This document shows, piece after piece, positions 1 through 58,656 of a DNA stretch of 64,000 bases. The position numbers and the translations under genes were made by a program. Source of the DNA: Macrocystis pyrifera (Eukaryota; Sar; Phaeophyceae; Laminariales; Laminariaceae); contig JASSKH010000026.1 in assembly GCA_031763025.1 (NCBI GenBank), positions 992,001-1,056,000 of the forward strand, given 5' to 3'. Each line of letters begins with the position of its first letter. The first letter of the stretch is position 1. The notes beneath the pieces are model-generated. The model did not search any database. It was not told the origin of the DNA and saw only the letters and a list, made by a program, of their open reading frames with translations.

Positions 1-909
1 GGTCTGTGGCTCACGGCGTCGGCCATATCAACACCACGATCGCTATGCACAGGCTTCAGCGTAGTATTGCGCGAAGTTAATATAACCAAAGCAGCACCTG
101 ATGACAGGTTTGATCCTGTCCTCATTACTACTCCTATATCTGTTTGACCATATCTACTACTGGTATATAATACCAGTAAAAGGCGAATGTACCAGTAGTA
201 TTAATATTACAGCAGTAGAATTTATGGGTAGGTACTGGCATTAGTAGCTGTTAGGTTTCAGCATTCCCTCTCCTCATCGATTTTCATCGAATGTTGCTAT
301 TAATATTAATATTATATTAATAATTCACGCTGTCGCGCTTTCCGCTATTAATAATTTTTTATGCAGAAAAAGTCCTCATGATAATGCACTCGGTTAGACT
401 CGAACCCACGAAATTCCTCTTCGTAGGCACGCAAACCACCTACTGCCTACAGCAGTACCAAGCCGCCAGGGACGCCGGCTCGGATCATGAATCGCCTTTT
501 TCTTTTCACCGATCGGAAATGACCTTTTTCGACCCACCAATCCGACTGCATAACAATGACAGCTTAAGCTTGAACATAGGAAATCTGGGGTTTTCGGAGC
601 GGGATTCACATACCTGGCAGTGTACCCGGTGTTTTGGTATGGATGGCATGTTTGGTTAGGGATACCTGGTACATGTTGAATACTGCAGAGAGAGCGAGTT
701 TAGTTGAGGCTGAAATCGCATTCAGGAGAGGGACGAAGACACGACGGGTGTTATAATACTACTCTCTACGACAACCGAAGGACACGGCAGAGTGCAGAAA
801 GCTGGTTGATAACTGACTGCCAACAACTCCTGCGACTGCTGAACGTGCTGCCTGCTTTTAGGATTGACGCTGAAGGGTGTGGCAGGAGGTTTATGAAGAA
901 TTTATACGT

Positions 910-1270
910 CCGACAGATCATCTACAGCAGTGCAGAGTGGTAGATCATCTAGATCCTACCCTCCCGTTATGAGGTGTTTCGCGGGATGTGTATATTATTG
1001 CCATACAGTATTACGGGGGACCATAGTAAATAGGTCCAAATGCTCTTACTAATAGTAAAAATAGGGAAATATACAGGTTTTTGTGTACACCGTAGGTCCT
1101 ATTTAATATGGTCCCCCGTAATAGTACATAATCTGACCCTATTAATAGGAACCTGTCCTACCGTAGATCATGCAGACTTTTCTGCTCCCATGCGGCAACA
1201 TGAGCTAGATCATACAGATCAGAAATAAATATATCTGCCCTGAAAGATCTAGATCACGGGTGATTTGTCC
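910..1270 (+). repeat. GATC-rich palindromic element, copy R1 (split by a MITE)
   Basis: Runs of GATCATCTAGATC-type palindromes flank a core with CCTCCCGTTATG, GCAACATGAGCTAGATC and CTGAAAGATCTAGATC, all shared with the other copies. MITE copy 1 sits inside, and a TATTAATA scar lies at 1140-1147. Confidence 0.8.
1011..1121 (+). mobile_element. TA-MITE copy 1, inserted in a GATC-rich element
   Basis: Starts TTACGGGGGACCATAG and ends in CCCCCGTAA, flanked by TA on both sides. It splits the GATC-rich repeat at 910-1270. Confidence 0.9.
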
Positions 1271-1730: not shown

Positions 1731-2045
1731 GTCCCTCTATAGTGTGTGTGTTCTTCACATTAAACCGTTCTTCTACTCGTCGACATCCAGCAAGCCCAGT
1801 GTCCGTCCTGATTCTTCACCCTAGAAAGATACGAGCTCTGTGGTCACAGACTACGAAACAGAGATAGTGCCGGGGTGCGGCAGCCGACAATACGGGCACT
1901 ATATGTAGCGGCAACCGGCACTATTAATAACTACTCCACACACTATTAACACCACACTGGGGAATCTCTTCTGTGCCAAGCGATTTAACAGGCACTATAC
2001 ATAGCGGGCAGCAGGCACTACTCAACCGGCACTATGTAGAGGGAC
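1731..2045. repeat. GTCCCTCTATAGTGCCGGT terminal-inverted-repeat element, copy F1
   Basis: Left end GTCCCTCTATAGTG, right end CACTATGTAGAGGGAC, with several internal copies of CCGGCACTAT. About 315 bp, non-coding. Confidence 0.7.
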
Positions 2046-24921: not shown

Positions 24922-24995
<74 letters not shown>

Positions 24996-27900
24996 GGCAT
25001 GCGATAGGACCGCAGTGTACGTAGTGCGACACGTACTGCTTCCGACGGCGCTTTACGCACCGTACGGGGGTTCTGACACTACGCTGGCAGAGGCGCTGGC
25101 AGAGGAGGCTTTTCGTGAGGGGGGGGGGGGGGGGGGGGGGGGTTCCGCGGTGGTGCAGAAACCGTGGCGGAGGAGTATTTTGCGTGGGTGCCGATATTTT
25201 GTTTTTTTCCGGATGGGGAAAGGGTACGCATCGAAATCAGTCCGGAATTAGCAGTTTCTACAATGTTAGTAGATGCCCCCCCTCCCCTTTTCCCTTTTGC
25301 TTGGTATTGTGTTGGTGCTTGGCTTCAATTTGTTTCGTTTTCGTTCTGGCTTTTGTTTAGTTGCGTGGGGGGCAACGTTTGGCGTCAACACGATCAGCAC
25401 TCTTTGCGGTGCGCCTGACTTGACCGGCAGTGGCGGTGGCGGCGGTGGTAGTAGACTGTTGGTGGGGTGTTGCGGCCGTTGCGTGGAGGGCAACGTTTGG
25501 CGTCAATACGATCAGCACTCTTTGCGGTGCGCCTGACTTAAACAGCGGCGGTGGCGGCGGTGGCGGTGGCGGCGGTGGTAGTAGACGGTGTTGGTGGCGG
25601 TGGTGGTATTGGTGATGGTAGGGGTGGGTGGCGGTGGTGATGGCGGTGGTTGTGGTGGGTGGCGTTAGTGGTGGTGGTGGTGGTGTCGGTGGTGGTGGTG
25701 GCGATGTTTGTGGTGTTGGTGATGGTGCTGGTGGTAGTTTCGTCCGTCCGTTCCCTTCTCATGTGCAGAGTGGTAGTTCACATCCCGGCGCGGGTTTCGT
25801 TGCCCTTGCTCGATGCTTCCACCCCCCCCCCTGTTGCAGAAAATGTACGTTTTTTTTTACCGACCCGTCCCCTCCCCCGCCCATCCCGACCGACCGTGCA
25901 CCGGCGCCGACCCCGCCCCTTGTGTAAGGTGCTGGAAGTCGAGGACGTTGCCCCAGGCGCTGTGCAGGCCACCCCTCGGCCCCCCATGCCTAAAGCCAAC
26001 CAGCTGGAGGCGAAAAAGGCCCGGCTGGTGCGGTGGGGAAAAGGACCCGTCCTTGATTGACAAGGACATGGATCGGCAGAGGGAGGCGCTCAATAGGGCG
26101 CAGAAGGAAGACCTGCAGGTAAATGCATAGCCGCCCGCGAGATTTTTTGTCGACGGACTGTAGCTGAGGGGTGTGTACGATGGTTGTTGTTGTTATTATT
26201 GTTGTCGTCGGTGCTGTATGTGTGTTTTGCTGTTGCTTACCTCCGTATTTCCTACACACGTCGGTCCGTTTCGTCCCTTGGCCCGTTTTTTTGTTGTGTT
26301 TTTCCTCATCCGTCGGTTTCATCCAGCTTGAAGCCGAGCGGAACGCGTGGGAACGGTGGTACCTCACCCTCCGGGCGCACCTGACGGCAGGCCGTCGTCC
26401 CACCGCGTCCTGGTCACCCTCCTCCGCCGCCGCTGCTGCTGCTGCAGCCGCCGCTGCCACCGCCACCGCTGCCGCTGCCGCTGCCGCTGCCGCCGCGGCT
26501 GCGGCCTCGAACGCTAACGCTTCCAGCGAATCGCCCGTCTCCGCGGTGACCGCCGGGGAATCCGACTCTTCGGAAGAAGAGGAGGAGGAGGAGGAGGAAG
26601 AGGTGGCGCCGGTGGTGGTGGTGGTGGTGGCGGCGGCGCCGACTAGAAGAGGGAAGCGGAAAGGACCGGCTAACCTCGGCGGGGGGGCGGCAGCAGCAGC
26701 AGAAGCAGCAACAGCAGCAACAGCAATATCGTGAGTTGTGGCGGCAGCAGCACGAGCAGCACCGGCGGTGGCATCGGCGGCGGTGGTGACTCGAATGGGA
26801 AGACGAGCGTGGTAAGCCGCCGCGGCTGGAGGGGGGGGGGGGAGAGGAGGAGGAGGAGGAGGAGGAGCGTGTGAGGGTGCTGCAAGCGCTAGTGATGAAG
26901 CGCGCCGGCCTCTCGGGGGAGTTCGACATGGGCAAGGTGGGAGCCTCGAATATGTTACGGTATGATATGGTGAGCGAGTAGTCTACCAGTAGACTATGCG
27001 CAGTGCACGAGACCGGTCTCTTCGGCAGTAGAGCTTTCACCGATGCCGTACCGCTTTTTTCGATAAAATTGTTGTCACACAACCCCACCCTGTGTACGAG
27101 ATGAAGGGGACTCACGCCGACCCTTGTTTTTTTATCGCGTTTGATTGGCTTAGGCTTCGCTTTGGGGTTTTAGATTTAGTCCCTCATCGTTTCGTGCACA
27201 AAGTGTTACTACCGTTTTCTTGAATACCCGATACCGCTCTTTCCAGAAATGTAAGAACCGATTAGATTCAATAATATTACGGGGGACCAATAATATTACG
27301 AGGGACCATATTAATAGTAAATAGCACCGAATTTTGTTAGTAAAAAGGGTTAAATATGTAGGCTTTTGTGTGTACCGTAGGTCCTATTTACTACGGTCCC
27401 CTGTATGAATAATAGGTATGGGTTGGCGTCGTCGGTTGGCAAAGGCCCTGTAAAACACCCCTCTAACCGCGTCAGCTACAACAGACATACAAGGGTCCGT
27501 GTTTTTCTTTTTCTTTTTCTGGCGGGGTCACCATGGCTGGCGGTCGAGTTGGACCATTTGTGCGGGGTTGGGGAACCTTGGCTCCGCACAACGGGGAGGT
27601 GATGGTATCGTGTAGTGCGTGCTGGTACATGGTATGGCACCCACGAGGTAGGTTATATAGTATACCATGTCTCTCTGGAAGTGGCCACACCAGAAGATAA
27701 ATCAATTCATAGACGCTGTCATCCATATGCAAGAAAGTTCGCCTCACAAGCGGTTCTTAATAGGATGCAGCTCACCCTTCATGCGACTCGCTCAACACCC
27801 CACGGCGCTTAGCCGCTTGGTGCAAGCAATGTGTGCCTGGTCGGTGAAAACCCGACTTGCTCCGTCCGGGCATTGTAAGGATGCGAGGGTCTATTAATAG

Positions 27901-29936
27901 TCATTCGACTACGGCCATGCATAGCATGAGTGTAACCCCCCCCCCCCCCCGCTTGCCGATGAGTACACCCCCCCCCGCTTGCCCCTGCTGCCTCCCACGC
28001 CCGCTCGATCGGCTAGGCTAGGGTAAGAAGTACCCGCGCTTTGCGAGGTCGAGAAACCGCATCACAAGGCTTGCGGAATATTAACACTCGCTCTCCTTTT
28101 TTTTCCTCCCCCTTTTTGCTGCAAGGTCGAGAGTTGCTGCATCGCAACGCTTGCGCGGTACAAACGACCATCCCCTTTTATTCTAACCCTTTGCCTTCCT
28201 GTACGTCCTCGCTCTCGGATGATCCAGGTCGTTCAAGTGCTGGCGAGTGGCAGCCGAGACGCGATGTCCGCGAGGCGCGAACATGCCGCTTTGCTTGCTA
28301 AGCAGCAGCAACAGCAGCAGCAGCAGCAGCTGCAGCAGAGCGCGGAGTTGGAGAAGGAGTTCGAGGCAACACACCCAGGGGACGAAGGGTCGTTGCGGCG
28401 CTGGGAAGAGGTGCTGCGGTCGGCCGATGTGAACGGGGGGCGGTGGAGGTCCGACCTGGTGGGAGCGGACTCGAGCGGTAAGTTGAGAGCTTGCAACCCT
28501 TGACGTACTTGATTTGTCGTGCAGGCAGAAAACGTGACGGGATATAGTTGACGATTTATATACAGCATCGTAGCCACTGCTTGGTTGATGGATGTTGGTT
28601 ATAGGAAGTATATACCTATTTTTTTTTATCATCACTTTTACTTTCCAGCCCACTCGTAGGAGGTTTTACCCTCGACGATCTTCTGGACAAGCCGTGGTCA
28701 CAGGTGTCCTCCCTTCTCCCCTCCGGTACGTGCCTTCATTTTTGTCGCGCATAGGGTTTAGCATTCCCACTGCTTGTCGATTTTCATCGAATGTAGCTAA
28801 CTCACGCTCTCGCGCTTTCCGCTTATCAATGTTATATGGCACTATCCCGCTGGCCTCCTTAAGTCACAGTCTAGGATGACAAAAAAAAGGTCGGTGGCGG
28901 AATTATGCACGATGCAAGGGAATCGTACGACGCGGGTGCGAGCGTGATCCTACTCGTGCTGCTTTCTGCGCGCCCACACTGCTGGCACGCGCAGATGATT
29001 GATTAGATCAGGCTTACCGGGGGGGGGGCATTGCTATCTGTTGATCCCGCAAGGGTTTAGTATGAATGGGAGGCGGTGGCGAAGACAGGGGTGGGTGAGG
29101 GATGCGCTCACGCTGTGTTCGGAGCGGCGGAGACGGGAGGAAAAGGGAGATGGACGGGCGGGCCCCTCTTCCTCATGGAACGCCTGCCCTGCTCGACCCT
29201 TTTCTATTGTCTCTGGGATTTTGTGTTTGTTTGTTTGTGCCTTCTGCTTCCGCTTTTAGGACGCTGCACCATCGACATTATTCTATGTATTTTCCTTTTT
29301 TCTGTTAACCCTCCGGCGGATTGGTATAAATACATACGACTTGACCATTTTGCTGCTGCTGAAACGTATCCCATACTATTTTTCGAAGCATTTAGTCCCA
29401 CCAAACGGGGTGGCAAGTCTAAGTGAATTGATCTAGCCACGCTCCCACAGCCAACTATGTCGTCGTATGGTGTTGTTTGGTGGCTTTCGACTGTCTGTCG
29501 ACCTCGCAGTTTCATCAAAAGCGTTTCATTGGAGTGTTCCCATTGCTGAACCGTGCAAGCACGCGATAAATTTTCCTCCTCCCCCCCTCCTCCTCCCGCC
29601 CCTTGCTCCTCCTCTTCTTTTCGTCCCCCTCCTCCCTCCCCCCCTCCTCCTCCCGCTCCTTCCTCCTCTTCTTCCTCCTCTTCCCCCTCCCCCCCCCCCC
29701 CCGCCTCCTCTCCTCCTCCTCTCCCCGCCCCCCCCCCCCCCCCTCACCCCTCACCCAACCCCTGTGCTTCGCTTCTTCGGTTCATCAAACTGTCCTCCAT
29801 GCGGACTCTCGGCGGAATTCAGAGTTCCTTTCAGTCGCCGCCGCCACCGTCGCAGCTGCAAGAGGCGCAGCAGGAGCAGGAGCAGGAGCAGGAGCAGCAG
29901 CAGGAGAAACGGCAGCAGCGAAAGGAGCAGGAGTAG

Positions 29937-33600: not shown

Positions 33601-36294
33601 AACATTTGTGGCGCCCCTCCCTCGCGAGACACACAGCAGGAGCAGCAGCAGCAGCAGCAGTAGTACTGGCTAGCGTGCCACGGCGGTGCCGTACGCTTTC
33701 CTCGCCCGTTTCTCACCCGTCTCTCACCTTTTCCTCACTATTTCCTCAATTGGTAGGATTGATTGATTACTTGCTCATTGCATCTGAATTGTGCACACCT
33801 CACACATACAGATCATGATATATCTATCTATCTACTGTAGATGATCTAGTTCCTCGCCTGTCATTGTGATAGATTGTGCAGTATCTGCCTATTTTACCGG
33901 GGACTACAGTAAATAGGACCTACGGTACACACAAAAACCTATACTTCGTATATTTTAGTATTTTTACTGACAATATTTGGTCCTATTTGCTATGGTCCCC
34001 CGTAATAATCAGAGCCCAGGATGGAGAAGTGTGCTAGATCACGCAGATTATACGGTTGCCACCCGGCAACATGAGCTAGATCTATGACAAGATCGGGACT
34101 ATAGATGATCCATCTGCCTTGAAATATCTAGATACATGAACTGTGGGAGCTGATGATCTGTATGATCGGTCCAAGATATGAAATTTTATGCGTTTTTTTC
34201 TTGAGAAAAAATAAGTTGTTTTTGTGAGATTTACAGTCCCCTTCGGACGATTTGTCAAGCGAGCGGGGAGGGCGCAAACGCCGAGCGATACTTCTATTTA
34301 TGGAACTACTGTATGTCGACGAGATATTCCCAATCGCCGCCATTTTCGTTTGTGCGTGCGTGCCCCCCCCCTAGTTTCGCAGAAAGTCGTCTCGGAAACC
34401 CGACACAGGGGGTGTGTTATGTTATCACCCGTGTGGTACGATATATCATCATCCGTGTTATGCAGTATATAGTGTCCCTCTCAGGGGGTGTGTTGTGCTA
34501 TCACCCGTGTGATTACGATATCTTGTCACCCGTGTTATACGCTATATAGTGTCCCGTCGCAGGGGGTGTGTTATGTTACCACCCGTGTGTTAGGGTATAT
34601 AGCTATATACAGTAGGATGTAATATAAAGCCCTCAAGTGCGGAAGGAAGAGGTGTGTACCCCCGTCCTCTCCTCTTGCCCTTTCCTTTACCCTCTCCCCA
34701 CCGACCCTTCCCACGCCCCTCACCCCTCTGTAACGATAGACCGCCCTTGAAGGAAGAAGAAGGCGCGACGGATGGCAAGAGCGAGATGGAAGGGGGCGAA
34801 ACCACTGACAAGACGGCGGCGGCGGCAGCAGCAGCAGGGGCAAGGGCGGGAGCAGCGGCAGGGAGTGGTCCCGCGACGGACGCCACCACCGCCGCCAATG
34901 CTAGCTCTAGCGGCAAGGAGGCCAACGCTGCGGCCGATTCAACCGCGAGCGCTACTGCTACCGCTGCTGCTGTGCCCGCGGCCGCGCTCGCGCTCCCGCT
35001 CGCCGGTCTCCCTGGGCCTGCTGTCGTCGCCCTCGGGCAATGGTGTCGGCGCGGCGACAACGGGACCAGCGAGGGGTAGACAAGGGAGCGACGAAACAGC
35101 GACCGTTCGCTCCGGCTCCCCTCCTCCTCCCCTTCCTCCTCCTCCTCCCCCTCCTTCTCTTCCTCCCCCGCCCCCACTGTCGCCTCCCTTACAGCAGCCT
35201 CGAGCCCCGCTGCTGCTCCGGGCTCCGCTGTGGGTTCCGGTTCAGGTTCGGGTTCAGCCAGCTCTGGATCCCCCGCCCCCTCGCCTGCGTCTCCCTCCTC
35301 CCCCGACGTGGAGGGGTCCTCCATCGCGTTCGGGGAAGGTGGTGTTGTCGCCAAGGGAGTTAAGGGAGGGGAGCATGCCGGTAGCGTGGAGGAGAGGGAG
35401 GGGGAAGCGGAAGCGGGAGTGGAAGCGGAAGTGGAGGGAGTTGTAGGTGTGAAGAGGCGAAAGGGATCGGTCGGGGAGAGTGGGACCGGGGCCCCCGGGG
35501 CGGTGGGGCGGAGCGGGTCGAAGCGGCGGAGGTCTTCTGAAGCTGCGACGCGGTCGTCGGCTTCTAAGGTGTGATAGATGCGGCTGGTTTGGTGTGGTGC
35601 GGTGCTGTGGTGTGGTGGGGCTGTGCTGTACGGTAGGACGTGCCATTTTGGCTGCTCTGTGGCGTGGCGACTCGCGTAAGGTTGTGTTCTCGTGGGCGTT
35701 GTTGTTCTTCTCACGTTTCACTCATCGCCATGTTCTAGTCCGCGAGTCGCAAGACAGGCTCATATAACTCTGGAGTGGGAGAACGCCCCTGGAAGAGTGA
35801 TTTGTGTTGGGTCGCCCTCGGTCTCTCTGGCCGTGTAGCTGGATGTTCGCGATATCTAACCACGTGGGGTGTTTGACCATTGTGTCGATGTTGCACCTCC
35901 CCGTCTTTCCGTTCCATCCCCGTCCTAGTCATTATTACCCGGTTGAGAGCAACCGTTGCAATCATTTGAAAGGTCAATCATGGCCAGCCATTGTGACCGT
36001 TAGAGATAGCAACCATTTTCTACCGTTGAAGAATAAAACATGTTGTTAATCGTTGAAATGTCAACCCTCTGTCACGGTCAAGAGTTAACACACGGTCCCA
36101 CTCGGCCGGAACTTGACCATCGCGCCCCATCGCGACTCAATCGGACAACGTATGTTCGCTTTTTATCCCTCCGTAAACGCCGTGATCAGTGACGTTGCAT
36201 TCATAACGACGCTCGAAACTTGACTGACCCTGCCCCCCCACTCCCCCCCCCCCCTCCCTCCCCCTCCCCCTCCCCCCCCCCCCCCCCCTCCCCC

Positions 36295-36349
<55 letters not shown>

Positions 36350-36462
36350 TCCCCCCTCTGCCCTGTTTGGCACGCACCAGACCGAAGACACAAACAAGGT
36401 TGCAACTCCTCATCCCGCAAACGGGGACACTTCAGGGGTTTCCTCCTCTCCTCGTGCCGCCG

Positions 36463-40938: not shown

Positions 40939-41283
40939 CAAAAAGGAGTGTCGATACCAGGCCCTTTCCCCTAGATAGTACCGCCTCATTACACACAGGT
41001 TCAAGGTCACCAGAAATCCCCCACTCCGTTCCGTATACGTAGACCCTAGACCCTAGGCACCAACCCACTCGGTGTGTTCTCCAAACCACAAACAACACAA
41101 AAGAGAGAACCTGCTCCGGGCCCCGCTCCACATTGGCGTCGACGGCAGAGATCTCTTTCCAGTTTTTTATTTTTATCGTTGCATGACAATTTTGCCTCTA
41201 GTGTAGGAGCAAGTGTCTCTCTTTCATCCCTGGCAGACGCTCATCAACAGCAATACGGCGGAAGGCGATATATAGAGGGGAAT

Positions 41284-41327
<44 letters not shown>
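41284..41327 (+). repeat. Poly(G) tract of 44 nt
   Basis: Pure G run, with a C run of about 30 nt 140 bp downstream (41469-41498). The two could pair as a long G:C hairpin. Confidence 0.88.
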
Positions 41328-45679: not shown

Positions 45680-48600
45680 CCCCTTCTCCCTCCTTGGCTT
45701 GAGCTATGACAGTATGATATTACGGGGGACCATAGTAAATAGGACCAAATATTGTTAGCAAAAAATAGGTAAATATATAGGTTTTTGTGTGTACAGTAGG
45801 TCCTATTTACTATGGTGCCCCGTAATAGTACGCTAGTCACCTTGTTGTGGTACTTGAGGGTCTTGTAAGGCGTACTGGAGAGGTCTAGGTCGAACCACGC
45901 CACCCTCCGGTCGTAGCTACCGACGATGATGTGGTCGCCGGAGGGGTGGACGTCGATGCAGCTGATCCACTTGCACCCGCTCACCAGTCGCTTCACCAGC
46001 ATCTGCAAAAAAATAAAAAGCAGACAATGACCAAACAGTAACCAAATCAGTGAACGGACGCATGCTTCTTTCTGTTGGCCTACTGCTCGCTGGGCTGGGT
46101 GTTGGGACTGCTGCTGGAATGCTGTTGGACTACTACTATTAGACTACTAGTGTTGGACCCCTAATTGGCTACTGTCGGACTGCTGATTGGCTACTGTCGG
46201 ACTGCTGATTGGCTACTGTCGGACTGCTGATTGGCTACTGTCGGACTGCTGATTGGCTACTGTCGGACTGCTGGTTGGCTACTGTCGGACTGCTGATTGG
46301 CTACTGTCGGACTGCTGATTGGCTACTGTCGGACTGCTGATTGGCTACTGTCGGACTCCTGATCATTCCCTCTCTCTTTTGGACTTTTGTAAAGTTACTA
46401 CCGTTGCATTGCTGCTGACTGTTGTCGCACTACTGTTGGGCTACTGTTGCCCCCCCCCTTTTCCCCCCTCCCCCTCTCTTCCTTCCTCCCATAGCTCCAT
46501 TCCATGATCTTACGAAAAAAATCGCGGAACGACGGAGCAGCGGCGCGCGTGCATAAGATGTCGCGTCGCTGATCTTGCTGCGCATACCTTGTGGAGAGAG
46601 CAGGCCCCCACCTCCCGCAGCCGCTTCTGCTATACGAAGTACGACTATTAATACTACCCCATATACCCACCAGGCGAAACAAAAAGCTCGGACGGAAGTC
46701 AAAAGAGGCCAAATAATAATAAAATAAAATCAATGTATTCATACTTACCAGAAGTCGAAAAAATCAAACCTAAAAAAGGGAAAACGAATCGCACGAGAGT
46801 GCAAATCAAATGAAAAAATATTTGAGAACACTCAGAACCGAAAATCGGGGCGGGGGGGGGGGGGGGTGGAACGCTACGAGTACTCCTCGAAGCACAGGTA
46901 AAATTTACGCACGACGGCTCACAGAGCAGGGGCAGCAGAGCGGAGCATCGGCTAAGGAAGGATACAACACGTACGTACGAACCTGCTTGATGAGGTGGTA
47001 GATCCTGACTTGCTGCTTAGTTGCGACGAAGAGGAAGGGCTTGGTCACGTGAAATTTCACGCACTGTACCTCTCCCTGAAGTAGGCGTAATTAGCACAGG
47101 GGGGGGGGGGGGGGGGGGGGGGAAGAGGGGGGAGGGGTTACGGGGATATTTCACGGAGGTAGGCACAGATGGAGCTGTCGAGATGGCACTTACTCGTCGC
47201 TGTCGCTTCGTCGCTTTCGGCAGACGGGTTCGATTTTCACGCAAGTGCCCTTCGAGTTTGCTGTTCGGCTTTCGCGAACGCCGCTGCCACAACGGCTATT
47301 ACAGCAGTACCTACTCACAACTACCAACCACCAGGTATATGCGAGTATTACACACCGTATCGCGAGTATCACAGACACTATACTCGTATACGGCATGACC
47401 CATGCTACTACGTACGAGGGACCGTAGTAAACAGGACCAAATATTGTTCGTAGAAATAGCGAGATACATAGTTTTTTTTGTTTGTGTACCGTAGGTCCTA
47501 CCGGTAATTACTATGGTCCCCCGTAAATAGAGACCGCGACTGCATCGAACCTCGGGGCCCACCAAAGCCTGGCCAGCGAAACAAGCGGAACGCCACCGGT
47601 GGCAGGTGCTATCAAGCCAGCCACCGTCGTGCTCTAGACGCAACAGAGACAAGCGCTATATACGGGCCCCCCAGCCATCCCCACCTCAAAAATACCGGCA
47701 TCTACGAGGCCACCAAAAACTTTTTTGGTCGAGCGAAATAACAACATCATACTTAGCATTTTTTCTACGACAACGTTCGCGCTTGACAGGGGGCGAAAGC
47801 CGAAAGCATCGCCGGCGTTGTCAGCCCCCCCTCCCCCCCCAAATACATTCGACGCTGTCATCCATGTTGCAAGGAAGTTCGCCTGAAAAGCGGGGTTGTT
47901 GTAGGATGCAGCTCGCCCTTCATGCGACTCGACGAAACGTCTCACGGCGCTTCCTTCGCGCTTGGTGCAAGCAATGCCTGTCTGGTCGGTGGAAACCCGA
48001 CGTGCTCCGTCCCGGCATTGTAGGGATACCGGCATTGTAGGGATGCGAGGGTCTGTGATCATACATACGACTACGGCTAGACATGGCGTGAGCACCCCGC
48101 CTCGCCCCCTCCCCCGCGCGCACGATGAAATGCGAACGCTATAGTGGAAAGGAGTCGCGCGCAAGCCGTGGCGGCAGCGGGATCGGACAGCAGTGTTTTA
48201 CTACGACCTCGCCCAGCTTCGACAAACAGGTTGATTATACGTACCCCACGCTAACTTCCTCATTAAACGTTCATTCCGAGAAAAATCCGCGAAAATTCCC
48301 AGATGTCGGGCGCCCTCCTGTACCGCCGTAGTGTATACTATTTGGCCCATCTTCGACAACATGGTATTGATGGTCCACCGTTAACGTCTCAGTACATCAT
48401 TCCGAGAATTTTCCAAGGCGTTCGGGGTAAATTTCCCCCAGGATTTTCCCAGGTGGTCACGGTACTTTTTTTCTGATAATTTTCCCAGGGAGTCGGGGTA
48501 AAAACGTTAGGGTCAGGTTCGGGGCCCAAGCAAGTTCAAAAGCACAAATCAACCGCTGTGTAAAAGAGGCCGGGTCAAGGAAGAGGTAGCACCTTTTTTT

Positions 48601-51600
48601 TTGTGGAGGTCCTCACTCCATGAGCTCCATACTACCTCACTCCGAAAACTGATTCGGGGAAAAAAGCCGATGGTGCGACCCGATGGACAATCCTAAAATC
48701 CTACTATGAGCGAGTCTGTCACGAAAAACTGCTGTGAAATACCCTTGGCACTCCGAGAATGTAGGGTTGAGGAACCCGGTCAGTCGGAAACATTTTAGCC
48801 AAAAAGTGCTACCTTTATCTTAGCACGCGTCCCATATTGCGGGGGAATGTACAGTATTGCGGGGGAATGCACAGCATGTAATAATCAGAACCAAAACATG
48901 GCGAGTAGTAAACATTAAGGAACACATTCTGGTGCACTATGGGTTCTGATTACTATGGGGGGCCACAGTAAATGGGACCAAATATTGTTATTACGGGGGT
49001 CCATAGTTAACGGAACCAAATTTTGTTAGTAAAAATAGGCAAATATATGGGTTTTTATGTACACCATAGGTCCTGTTAACTATGGACCCCCGTAATAGTA
49101 AAAAAATGAAAATAAATAGGTTTTTGTGTGTACCGTAGGTGCTATTCACTGTCGTCCTCCGTAATAGTATCGCGTGTATACCGTAATTGTTGGTATTACG
49201 GGGGTCCATAGTTAACGGGACCAAATTTTGTTAGTACAAATAGGCAAATATATAGGTTTTTATGTACACCATAGGTCCTGTTAACTATGTACCCCCGTAG
49301 TATTACGGGGAGCCATAGTTAATAGGACCTACGGTACACACAAAAGCCTATATATTTGCCCATTTTTACTGATAATATTTGGTCCTATTTACTATGGTCC
49401 TCCGTAAAAGTTGTGTTGAATTAGGCAAAAACGAAAACAAAAACAAAAACGAAAAGAGGCGTGGTTACCGTGTACCAGGCACGAGTAGTGCAACTCGCCT
49501 TTGTTCTTCGGAAAGGGCACTGCGTGGAAGCCTTCGACACCTGGTGTATCATCACCGCCTGTCTGCTCTCCCCCTGGGACACGGACGCGAGGTAGTCTCC
49601 CTTCCCATGCCATGTCACGCAGCAAACCTCTCGCTCGCACCTGCTTTAGCCGGGAAGGGGCGAGGGAGGGAGGGAGGGGAGGAGGGAGGGGAGGAGGCAG
49701 GAAGGGAGGGAGGGGGGGGAGGGGGGGAGGGAGGGAGGGAGGGAGGGAGGGAGGGAGGGAGGGAGGAAGGGAGGGAGGGAAGGAAGGAGGGGAAGGAGGG
49801 GGGCGAGGGAGGGAGGGAGAGAGGGAGGTGATGAAAAAACTGCGGGAAGGAGCCGTCATTATCGTACGATATTTGTCAGCATTCAGCATTAGCCACAATA
49901 GCCCAAGATGGCTAGCGAACGATACGCAGCGATTGATCATTATCACTAAGGCCTTCGACAGCCAATACAAGGAAACAAAAAACAAGCCACGCACGAGTGT
50001 TCATGTTAGCGCCTTTCGAACTGCACTACCGTTTTTGCGGGAAAAAACTCAAACTACGCTACTCGTACATGACTTTTGCGGGCAAACTTAAAACTACAAT
50101 ACTCGTACACGAATACTAGTGGGGGATAAGGGTGAGTGAGGGACTCAACCATTGAACAAGCGGCAACTAAAGTACTTGGCATCAGTGTGGTATCATTTTT
50201 ACAAATAGCCAATAGCCAATAGGCAGCTACTGAACGAGAGAGATATAAACAGATGAAAGGGGAATAGGGCCACCAACAGGAGTTGCACCTCAAGATTGGC
50301 GTTACGCTTCGGGCAGTTGTACTCACATTGCACACTACAAGTCCTGCCGACAGCGTCACAACAGCATCACTTAAACTCCACAAACAACGCCGTAGCATAA
50401 CCAAACTCGCCGCATACACATGGCACATGCAGCCTTTCTTACACTGGTGTGGAGTTGCACTTCAAAAGCGGCGTCTTTGCACGGGAATTTTCCCTCCTAC
50501 TACAGAAGTCCTAACGAAAAAAGGCACAAAAAAGTTTCCATGAATCGGACAGATCATCAGCTCCCTGACCTAGATTAAAGAGATCAGTGGGTTGAGACCT
50601 GTGCATAAATCATGCATACCCTACAGATCGCCACGTGAAAACTTGTACAGACGATGCAGATCCGTGACGATGAGCTGTCTGATCTGTACAATGATACACG
50701 TGTTCTGCACAACGGTCTGTGTGATCCCCATGATGATCTCTGTAATAAGTACAATGATCTGTGTGATCTGTGCAATGATCTGTGCGATCTGTACAACGAT
50801 CTGTGTGATCTATACAACAATCTGTGTGATCTGTACAATGATCTGTGTGCTCTGCAAAGCGATCTGACCAGTCCGACGGGCAAAATACTCGCACAATCTC
50901 CCCGCACAGGACAGCGCCTCCTTACCTCATCACCACCCGCACCCCAGCCTCCCCAGTCCCGCCCTTCTTCCCTTCCCCTTCCCGGCCGACACCGCCTGCC
51001 ACTTCACGGGGGACGCCTTCTTCCCAGCCCCTGCCCCCGCCGCCGCCGCCGCCTCCTTTTCGTCCACCTCCGAATCGTCGTCGTCAGCAGAGGACTCTCC
51101 ATCCCCCTCCCCCCCTCCTCAGATTTGGAAACCCCATTCCCGCCACCACTGGTAGTAGCCGTATGCAGGAGGGCTTCGGTGATGACGTTGGCGTCTTGTC
51201 CTCCCGTGCCCGTCGCGATGAGAGCGACAAATTTTCCAGTGCCCACCGCAAGCACGTGATGGTCTGGGTTCGGATTCCACTGAGGGGTTTCGACAAGAGC
51301 AAGGGAGGGGGGGGAGGGGGGAAGGGTTGGAGGTGGGGTGGGGACAAGCGGGGGGGGGGGGGGGGGGGGGTGTACTCGATATCATGCATGGCCGTAGTCG
51401 TGTGATAATAAGATTCTCGTATCCCTACAATGCCGGGACGGAGCACGTCGGGTTTTCGCCGACCAGGCAGATATCGCTTACTTGCACCAACCGCGAAGCG
51501 CCGTGAGATTTTGGGCGAGTCGCATGAAGGCTGAGCTGTTTCCTCCTAAGAACTGTTTTTGAGGCGGATTTTCTTGCATATGGATGACAGCGTCAATGAA

Positions 51601-54600: not shown

Positions 54601-57600
54601 GAGAACCAGTATCTCAAGAGCGCGGTACAGTAATCGTATCTCTATAGTGCCGGTATACAGTGTATGCGCCAGCCAGCCAACATTACCGGCAATATTATAG
54701 CGGCAACCGACCGGCACTAATTACTCCCGCACACTACCACACTGGTCAATCCCATCTGTTCCAAGCGGTTTCAGAGGCACTATTACGGGGGGGTCCATAG
54801 TTAATAGGACCTATGGTACACATAAAAAACTATATATTTACCTGTTTTTACTAACAGTATTTGGTCCTATTTACTATGGTCCCCCGTAATAACTATAAAG
54901 GGTAACCGGCACTATACTCAACCGGCACGAAAGAGGGGCCAGACCACTACTTGTATGCCCGAATAGTGGGTACGTCCCAGTACGTTTGGGTATGCCCATC
55001 ACCTCGAAGGACGTGATATTCTCTCCCCCCGTCCATTTTCCGCTCTGAAGTCCTACGTAAGACGGTACGTAAGAAATAGGAGTCTTTTTAGGACTGCAGT
55101 CTCTTCAGATCAGTTTTGGGGACAACTTACTTGGAATTAGACTGCTTTGTCAACAAAACGGAACCGCAGTCCTGAAAGGGTCAAGAGGGTTAAAAATGTG
55201 TCATCGTGCTGGTGCTGCTCGTAAACGCGTTATCATTAATCACCAGCTGTCGCACTGTTGCCCGACTGTTCCTATGCCCAAAGGTAAGGTGCTCGAACTA
55301 CAGTATACCAGGTATAATACAGTGACGAGCTTCAAGGAGAGGGGAGGGGAGGGCCGGCGAGGGAGGGGAGGGGAGGGAAGGGCGGGGAGAGGGGGGTGCA
55401 TGCTATATAGCTGGGTTATACGGTCACCTCCCACTGTTGCTGCTCTTCCTCCGTGAGCAGGTACTCCTTGGGCGGGCGGTAGCTCTCGGCGTGGCCCGGG
55501 AAGGGCATCTTCGGGGCTGGAATGTGCATCGGCCCTTTGTGCCTGTCCCGAACGTTCCGAGCGAGAAAAATCGGGCGAAAAAGAAAGAAAACAACAATAC
55601 TCTGGTATACAGTGCTTTCGTGATATTACGGGGGGAACATAGTAAACAGGACCTATGGCACACACAAAAACCTATATAGATACATGTTTTTGCCATCAAT
55701 ATTTGGCCCTATTTACTATGGTCCCCCGTAATAGTCGGGAAGAAGGAAATGGAGGCGCGCGGGATCAGCGCTTGCCCGGTATACTATCCCGATGATCACA
55801 CGGGTGATTGATGGGGCACCCGCTAGTTTTTCTCGTTCTCATCGTCGTTGCTGTTGTTGTTGTTGTGGTTTATTAATATTACGGGGGTCCATAGTTAATA
55901 GGACCTATGGCAAACATAAAAACCTATATATTTACCTATTTTTACGAACAATATTTGGTCCTATTTACTATGGTCCCCCGCAATAGTAACTGCTTGTATA
56001 TAATTAATTTGATTCTTCCTGAGTGTTCGAGCCTGACTTGCTTTCGCGACAATGGTCCTGGGGGGGGTGACATCGCGGAGAGCTTGAGAGCGAGAGCCAC
56101 ATTAACAGCAAAAAATCGATGAGAGTCGAGGAGCAGTGGTGGGAATGCTGAATGAACCCTCTGCGCGATAAAAGTGGAGGCGTGTTTACACCGGGGAGGA
56201 GGGAAGACACCTGTGACCACACGCCTTGTCCACAAGGCTGAAAAGCAAAAGTGATAACGTAAAACATGAAGGAAAAATAGGGCCGACCAAGGACGACCCC
56301 GGCGCATTGGACGATAACGGCGCTCTAAGGTACGCGCACAGTGGTGGCGGGCCCTACTGGGCAAGATTCGGCTGCTAAGCTGCTAATGTTGGGAAAAAAC
56401 AAAAAGATAATATCGGCCTACGTTAAAAAAGAACAAAAAAAAACAAAAGACACCCGTCGGAAAAAAAGCAACGAACACAATACGTACAGCAGTGGAACAA
56501 CTAATACGTTGGACAGATCATGTACAGATAGATCATGATCTAGATGATCTAGTTCCTCACCCGCCGTTGTGAGAGGTCGTGCAGTATCTGCCTTATAGGG
56601 CGGATCCGACCAGGAACATGTGCTAGAACAAGCGGATTATACGGCTCCCACCTGGCAACATGAGCTAGATCATAGTGCAGTTCAGGGATCTATCTATCGA
56701 TATATCTGCCCTGAAAGATCTAGATCATAACGTGGAATCTGATGATCTGTAGATGATCTGTAGATGATCTATCTGTCCCATTGCGGAAGTATTGGGGAAA
56801 GAAAAAACGGCCGCATTTCTGGTTGATGACGAAAAAAAAACGACAAAAAAAAACGGAGAGGTGCAACATCTCTTAGCGCTTTGGGCTTGAAACGTAGAGA
56901 GACAAGTGACTACCAGTACAGAACTACAGTGCAGCGGTTACATGCAAATAAATGCCGAAATTAAAAACAGCAGCAGCATCGACCATCATCACCACCATCA
57001 CCATCACACCCACGAGGCTTCTCACTTTTCGGGAATGTCGTCATCATCCTTCCAGATCTGGTAGGAGTCCTTCTCGACTTTCTTCTTGGGGTTGACGGTG
57101 ATGCGCCCTTCCCTGATCCCCTTCATCAGCTGGTGCACTTTCATCATCTCCCACTGCGACCAATCGACCAATCAAATCACACCACACCACGGCAGCGGCA
57201 GGAGGAAGACACAGCGGAAGGGGTAAAGAGGCGTTCAGCGAACGGGGGGGGGAAAAGCGGGTGGTGGTGGTGGTGGGGCATATAGAACTACACGCATGGG
57301 ATTCTGTCTTAATTCCCCCCCCCCTGGTCGGTGAAAACCCGACATGCTCCGTCCCGGCATTGTAGGGATGCGAGGGTCTATGGTCATACGACTAGGGCCA
57401 TGCATGAGATCGAGTACATCTCTCCTATCGACTACACCCCCCCCACGTCCGGCATTATCGATATGCGAGAGTCTATGGTCATACGACTACGGCCATGCAT
57501 GAAAATGAGTACACCCCCCCCCCCGCCCGCCCCCCCCATGACTGCCGGTCGCCAAACGCCCCTCCCTCCCCTCCGCCTATTTTTTGGTGAGGAATAACAA

Positions 57601-58656
57601 AACCATGGACAAGCTTCGAGCTACGAACTGTACTGCAATTAAATACCTGGTACTCGTACATACTGTTTGTGTACATACGGTGTATATAATAGCTTTGCAC
57701 TTTCGCACAGCATTGTCGAGGACTCAAATACTATATTTGTTGCAAAACGACACACTTCGTACATATATATTGCGATGGGGCATTTCTTGAGAAAGAAAAA
57801 AACCCGGCAATTTTCAATTTTCTTGCGAAGCGACATTTCTTGCGTCTTGCGAAGAAGCCTCAATTCGTCTTGCAAAACGGCATCAAGAATCTGACAACAC
57901 AAGACACTCCGACGAAGGGAGTTCCTGTACACTACGCATGCATGCTACAGAAGGGGAACGGTTTCGTGCATAAAAACAGTCACGGGGGGGGGGGGGGGAC
58001 GGTTTCGCGGGGGAAAACAAACTCGAACAGGGCGCGCAAAATAACTCGACAAAGAGGGCAGGCTTACTGTCGTACAACAGCAAAAAAAAAAACAAAACGC
58101 GAAAGGAAAGAAAAAAAAGAAATCGGTTGTCTCCCTCCCTCACCTTGCTCGGGATAAAGCGACGCTTGGGCTCGTCCCCGCCTGCCATGGGCATGACCTC
58201 CTTCTCGTGCGTGAAATAGTCCACGTAGTCCGGGTAAGCTTGGAACTCGGGGTGGGGGAAGGCTCCCGACTGGATGCGGCGGATTACCTCCAGCTCTCGG
58301 TCGGTCAGAGTTACCTATACATGATGCGTAACGTGTGTAACCGTCGGGTTGAAGGAAAAAAAAAAAAAAAAAAAAAAACGTTTCGAGACAAAAGTTTCAC
58401 AAAAATGAGGCGTTACACATAAAAAGGTATAACAGCCGTTTCACACACATAAAAAATAACGCTCGTACCTGGTACCAGGTATCTACGTAGGAGTTCGTAC
58501 ATTCTTGGTCAAACGTCCTCGACACTCACGCACCCGCCCACCAGCCCACCAGCCGCTACGTACAAGTGCATACATAGGTAGCCAATCACCGCAAGGGGGA
58601 AAGCTGGTGGGGCATCGCGCGTCTTGTGCAATGGCGTTATCATCACTCGCAGCAGC

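Follow-up and report, generated by a model that had tools for sequence, protein, structure and literature searches.

A probable stack of transposon excision footprints at a single TA of a giant kelp repeat

The question raised by positions 298–322 of the window (the whole stretch of DNA analysed, 64 kb, C207:992001-1056000) is how 25 bases of patterned A and T came to stand where a paralogous block has only the dinucleotide TA. The sequence, TATTAATATTAATATTATATTAATA, was read directly and parses exactly as TA-TTAA-TA-TTAA-TA-TTA-TA-TTAA-TA, as first noted in the sequence-only reading, and direct reading together with BLAST bears out the companion claim that the paralogous block has a single TA, lying between GAATGTAGC and ACTCACGCT. 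The flanks quoted in that reading are correct for the paralogue, but those of the ladder copy are slightly different (GAATGTTGC and ATTCACGCT); by BLAST, the identity of the two flanks to 28752-28838 is 85% and 82%. The features concerned are as follows.

298..322, no strand: footprint ladder, with rungs at 298-305, 304-311, 310-316 and 315-322.
28752..28838, no strand: paralogous block with a bare TA at 28798-28799.
252..412 (end approximate), no strand: copy of the reporter repeat (a SINE-like block) that bears the ladder, delimited by BLAST to 28752-28838 and by downstream sequence common to L032-L061.
346..353, no strand: a further TATTAATA at another TA of the ladder-bearing repeat copy, a net gain of 2 against the window paralogue and not a clean 6; TATTAATA is also present at the matching TA of copy L037.

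The sequence at 298-322 is most probably a stack of excision footprints left by the repeated entry and exit of a small element (probability about 0.92). Four rounds of insertion and loss, one per rung, are likely but not proven, since all of the rungs are TTAA or TTA, that is, of one type, and same-type rungs could partly be the product of slippage. The TTA rung reads naturally as a putative excision in which one base was lost.

The candidate element is a MITE of about 110 bp with the ends TTACGGGGGACC...GGTCCCCCGTAA (TTACGG...CCGTAA), the target of which is TA, duplicated upon insertion. Searches by BLAST with seven query copies gave 22 intervals in the window, a number that rises to 39 when 80 kb from other stretches is added. 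Three places illustrate its behaviour.

1009..1123, plus strand: MITE copy with ends TTACGGGGGACCA and TA on both sides, one of the 22 BLAST intervals.
49194..49411, no strand: two tandem MITEs with a common TA at 49301-49302, one having inserted at the target-site TA of the other, which was already in place.
55871..55878, no strand: reoccupied footprint TATTAATA, the last TA of which is the left target-site TA of the MITE at 55877-55985.

At 27275-27293 a MITE start ends after about 13 bases and is followed by ATAA and another MITE, perhaps the remnant of an aberrant excision.

In the proposed mechanism, a non-autonomous cut-and-paste MITE of this kind would enter at a TA and duplicate it, and a transposase from elsewhere in the genome would later excise it. 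Were the cut made two bases inside each 5' end, TT and AA would be kept, and end joining would yield TA-TT-AA-TA, that is, TATTAATA. Loss of bases during end joining would produce shorter scars, for example TATTATA or TATA, and as the footprint would still have TA targets, a new element could land there and give rise to the next rung. The 2-base stagger and the Tc1/mariner-type transposase are those that we infer from the scar and the ends.

If such scars are left commonly, the scar word should be overrepresented, as the sequence-only reading had anticipated, and this proved to be the case at both scales. In the window, TATTAATA occurs 19 times against a mean of 0.66 in dinucleotide shuffles, none of 100 shuffles reaching 19, and TATTATA occurs 17 times on both strands against 5.1 expected. 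The genome searched comprised 537,376,219 bases in 223 contigs (the published description of the giant kelp assembly gives 537 Mb, 223 contigs, an N50 of 13,669,674 and 50.37% GC; PMC10498591). It holds 94,130 copies of TATTAATA against 7,522 of the reversed control word, and 2,982 copies of the two-rung word TATTAATATTAATA against 15 for its control. Among the 70 8-mers composed of four A and four T, the mean count in the window is 2.1, and counts of at least 19 are reached only by the microsatellite words TATATATA/ATATATAT. Chance AT-richness was therefore rejected on the evidence of the shuffles, the words of the same composition and the reversed word. Outside the MITE copies, one-mismatch neighbours of TATTAATA number 31 against 15.1 expected, as for ageing scars, an excess that is weak when taken alone, 14 other AT words lying at about 0.8 to 1.8 times expectation by the same measure.

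The MITE insertions and the TATTAATA sites favour the same flanks, with G or GT directly after the TA. Of 32 MITE end flanks extracted by script, 16 have G next to the target TA (p 2e-4) and 13 have GT there (p 8e-9), against a background of 20% G and 5.7% GT, so that the target resembles ACTAGT; these rows include the inner or shared ends 27275, 27294, 47428 and 49301 (twice), none of which was dropped, and they miss MITE copies with ends mutated past the listed variants. For the 15 window TATTAATA sites outside 290-350, G is found in 15 of 30 flanks (p 3e-4); the window plus 48 kb, including the MAG contig L002, gives 30 of 60 (p 2e-7), and kelp sequence alone gives GT in 16 of 62 flanks against 3.5 expected. 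Contig L002 (JALZWD010000061.1) is filed as a bacterial MAG and has at least three kelp-type MITE copies as well as TATTAATA sites; in a second such contig, L001 (JALZWC010000131.1), the MITE match is confined to the first ~100 bases. The presence of kelp-type MITE copies in MAG contigs indicates that at least L002 is probably misbinned algal DNA. Viral contigs searched with the MITE pattern gave no match.

It is very improbable that TATTAATA is enriched for some other cause, as a protein-binding site, a promoter-like word or an internal MITE fragment, and that the ladder is just a curiosity of AT-rich sequence. Of the 19 window words, those at 27309 and 55871 do fall within a MITE or on its border, but the target preference of the MITE extends to the TATTAATA sites, most of which are isolated within mixed sequence in the window, and between repeat copies the word appears as an exact gain at TA. 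The gains at TA seen in the window, of this and of other words, are the following.

27309..27316, no strand: TATTAATA in a MITE copy, an exact 6-bp gain absent from the other 19 aligned copies.
1047..1054, no strand: TACTAATA, one mismatch from TATTAATA, a 6-bp gain found only in the MITE copy 1009-1123.
1922..1929, no strand: TATTAATA, an exact 6-bp gain where the paralogue at about 54,700 has TA (GGCACTAATTACTCC).
1944..1951, no strand: TATTAACA, a second 6-bp gain in the same copy as 1922, again where the paralogue at about 54,700 has TA.
47499..47506, no strand: TACCGGTA in a MITE copy, a footprint-like gain of a different type with no insert in other copies.
33942..33950, no strand: TACTTCGTA in a MITE copy, a 7-bp gain with no insert in other copies.

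An exact exchange of TA for TA-N4-TA between repeat copies is thus seen at 27309, 1922, 1944 and the reporter TA, but not at 346 or at 27892, where TATTAATA represents a net gain of 4 against several paralogues and not a clean 6. No paralogue spans the TATTAATA at 199 or most of the isolated window sites. When 20 MITE copies were aligned, four gains of at least 5 nt proved private to one copy, namely TACTAATA, TATTAATA, TACGAAGTA (read on the other strand) and TACCGGTA, and all four have the form TA-N4/5-TA. Changes in T-run length amount to 4 nt and fall under the 5-nt limit; before filtering, a census of 3-30 nt gains had 88 rows, in which the four stand among many low-complexity or alignment shifts.

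The block that carries the ladder is itself a genome-wide repeat (1,111 first-look candidates, 40 of them scored), and this allows one TA to be followed through many copies. Counts at the ladder's TA came to 2,603 bare copies, 144 with 1-30 additional bases and 14 that the MITE occupies. The 100 gains and 100 bare copies listed are the first on the contigs and not a random sample. Among these 100 gains the commonest is TATTAATA (22 copies), followed by TATA (16), a state that could be the product of slippage or partial repair. A net gain of 6 is the most frequent (34) and of 2 the next (19). Counted by hand, 74 of the listed gains have TA as their last two bases, and the remaining 26 include TAA (5), TAC (2) and some apparent local duplications of ACTCAC. 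In 12 of the listed copies the net gain is at least 9. These long gains include further TTAA stacks (TATTAATATTAATATTGTTA, TACTATTAATAATA and TATTATTATTAATA) and stacks of mixed scar type (TATTAATACTAGTA, TACCAGGTATTAATA and TACTGTACTGGTA); one of the 12, of 25 bases, resembles a stack less than it does a part of the block that has been rearranged or duplicated.

A MITE end at the reporter TA was matched 17 times, 14 times with the block on the left and three times with unrelated flanks (L015, L021 and L027). The sequence-only reading had looked to other strains for an occupied site; the 14 copies with the TTACGG...CCGTAA MITE at the ladder's TA, in either orientation, provide such sites, but within one genome and not between strains. 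On the far side of the MITE a clean TA is found in three of the 14 (L019, L023 and L024), and in six a footprint-like rung lies beside the MITE: exactly TATTAATA in L025 and L026, TATCAATA in L016, TATTAGTA in L022, and looser rungs in L018 (TATTTTAGTA) and L028 (TACAATATA). The other five are ambiguous or damaged, L017 and L031 having three extra bases, L029 a ladder with no right-hand block, L030 a lost TA, and L020 running into another MITE. Duplication of AT or TTAA in place of TA was rejected, as the bare copies read TA.

Taken together, the bare, occupied and footprint states at one TA and the exact gains from TA to TATTAATA strongly support the excision reading. The element also has three features of a Tc1/mariner-type MITE: insertion at TA with duplication of TA (bare TA against TA-MITE-TA in the three copies with a clean far side), short length with terminal inverted repeats (from a TIR scan and the 20 aligned copies, each of ~110 bp), and a footprint of 2-4 bp between two TAs, most commonly TTAA (the 22 of 100 listed gains).

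The reporter repeat is SINE-like in having GACTCGAACCC, which we take to resemble a B-box. A scan of four of its copies against Rfam gave one chance-level match only, and so 'SINE' is merely a label here. The Rfam scan of the window gave no match, no tRNA genes were found in the window, and Pfam searches of 10 of 280 filtered window ORFs gave a single weak WD40 match, below cutoff. Among the bare copies, some blocks form inverted pairs about 675-680 bases apart, for example at G000:C6:67768/68442, C12:46373/47049 and C14:272/953, which may also place the repeat within a larger inverted-repeat element. The window further contains very long homopolymer tracts of G or C, at about 24923-24993, 36220-36370 and 41283-41327.

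A single excision could also have seeded one TATTAATA, with replication slippage of the 6-bp unit TTAATA then lengthening it as a small microsatellite. This is the more serious of the alternatives, though we consider it unlikely. It accords with the uniform rungs at 298-322, and also with the frequency of two-rung words. These make up 3.2% of the TATTAATA words, and if the TA density of the window (3,393 per 64 kb) is taken as typical of the genome, about 0.3% of TAs are scarred, so that by rough extrapolation a second rung is about five times commoner than expected from two free TAs per scar. Slippage, re-targeting or heterogeneity among sites may lie behind this excess. Arrays of no more than four 6-bp units usually show little slippage, however, and both the MITEs that sit on footprints and the mixed stacks at the reporter TA need repeated insertion; stacks that mix scar types, such as TATTAATACTAGTA and TACCAGGTATTAATA, cannot be produced by one slipping unit.

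Since scars of several types (CTAG, CCAGG and CTGG among them) are present at the reporter TA, more than one family visits it, and the TTAA scars might derive from a related element that targets TA and has TT...AA ends, and not from the TTACGG family. This is improbable, as the TTACGG MITE is itself present at the reporter TA (the search pattern covered that MITE only), TTAA is exactly what its ends predict, and its flank preference agrees with that of the scars.

One of the other scar types may constitute a class of its own. The word TACCWGGTA occurs 18 times in the window against 0.49 in shuffles (~37-fold), two of the 18 places (3970 and 4210) lying in similar local sequence, and in one case it is stacked:

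58466..58481, no strand: TACCTGGTACCAGGTA, two stacked TACCWGGTA rungs with different centre bases.

The word is also found at the reporter TA, as TACCAGGTA in L041 and within TACCAGGTATTAATA in L037, and in L034 TACCTGGTA stands at a different TA of the repeat, at which other copies read TA. It is possibly a second footprint class. Sleeping Beauty leaves scars of the form TACWGTA, and by analogy the A/T centre of TACCWGGTA suggests annealed overhangs with a mismatched middle base. Two shorter words are also frequent in the window, TACAGTA/TACTGTA (26 against 10.5 expected) and TACCGTA with its reverse complement (19 against 7.9); such TA-N3-TA words are perhaps the scars of further families.

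The flanking allele of the ladder copy, GAATGTTGC, was found in two of the 100 listed bare copies and in 23 of the 100 listed gains (Fisher p 6e-6), as well as in seven of the 12 long gains and 10 of the 14 occupied copies. Its enrichment in gains and occupied copies fits descent of the gains from occupied copies, or the allele may instead mark an older subfamily. A tree was made of 32 copies (20 gain, 10 bare and 2 from the window), hand-picked, enriched for stacks and GAATGTTGC, and drawn from states other than occupied; in it, footprints are scattered among the bare copies, and stacks lie both on diverged copies and on young ones (L035, for one, differs from the majority line by 1.8%). Common descent may link some of the 22 identical TATTAATA rows.

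Counting excisions is normally difficult, since a vacated site looks the same as one that was never hit. Here there is a distinctive scar word, thousands of replicate TAs with a known bare state, and stacks that trace repeated visits, so that MITE excision rate, repair outcome and re-targeting could be measured from a brown-alga genome alone. We would go further only tentatively, at slightly less than even odds: the kelp genome may be a readable archive of DNA-transposon excisions (~86,600 TTAA scar words above control, plus the TACCWGGTA class), in which scars would stay or become better landing sites, sites would grow into mixed stacks, and the rungs of these would record the visiting families. 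The A/T centre of TACCWGGTA would on this view be in keeping with 5-base overhangs annealed at every position but the central one, which, if true, would be an unusual stagger for a TA-targeting element. At a practical level, small indels at TA in giant kelp (Macrocystis pyrifera) should not be taken for neutral, random markers. Footprints and TA reuse are already known for Stowaway/mariner elements; what is new here is the scale, the multi-rung and mixed stacks, and the possible second scar class.

Two known types of element were considered and set aside. The terminal sequence of Stowaway proper begins CTCCCTCC, and the kelp MITE ends are TTACGGGGGACC. Elements of the piggyBac type target TTAA and excise without a scar, but at the kelp sites the bare state is TA and not TTAA, the flanks favour G or GT, and a scar is left behind. 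Among open-licence PMC titles and abstract openings, no report of TATTAATA scars or stacked footprints in kelp was found.

Within the brown algae, Mariner-Tc1 MITEs are described as common in Ectocarpus, and the words 'footprint' and 'excision' have 0 occurrences in the main text of that paper (PMC12477816); the comparison with the kelp MITE is made at the level of the superfamily. Tc1/mariner footprints are given as 2-4 bp (PMC7913693). For ISY100 (Tc1/mariner/IS630), the excision cuts are reported to fall precisely at each 3' end and two bases inward of each 5' end (PMC2170065), and cutting of this type on TTACGG ends predicts the scar TA-TT-AA-TA. ISY100 resembles the kelp MITE in its TA target and differs in its ends and host, the kelp element being known from MITE copies alone. 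The closest parallel is in Triticeae, where intron 4 of beta-amylase is described as holding TA-flanked footprints of Stowaway MITEs that keep a few bases of each end, and Australopyrum as having a newer element inserted at the TA of an earlier footprint (PMC1925063). Both systems therefore have TA-flanked MITE footprints and re-insertion at a footprint TA; the Triticeae account concerns orthologues of one intron with one visible re-insertion, whereas kelp has tens of thousands of scar words together with multi-rung and mixed stacks.
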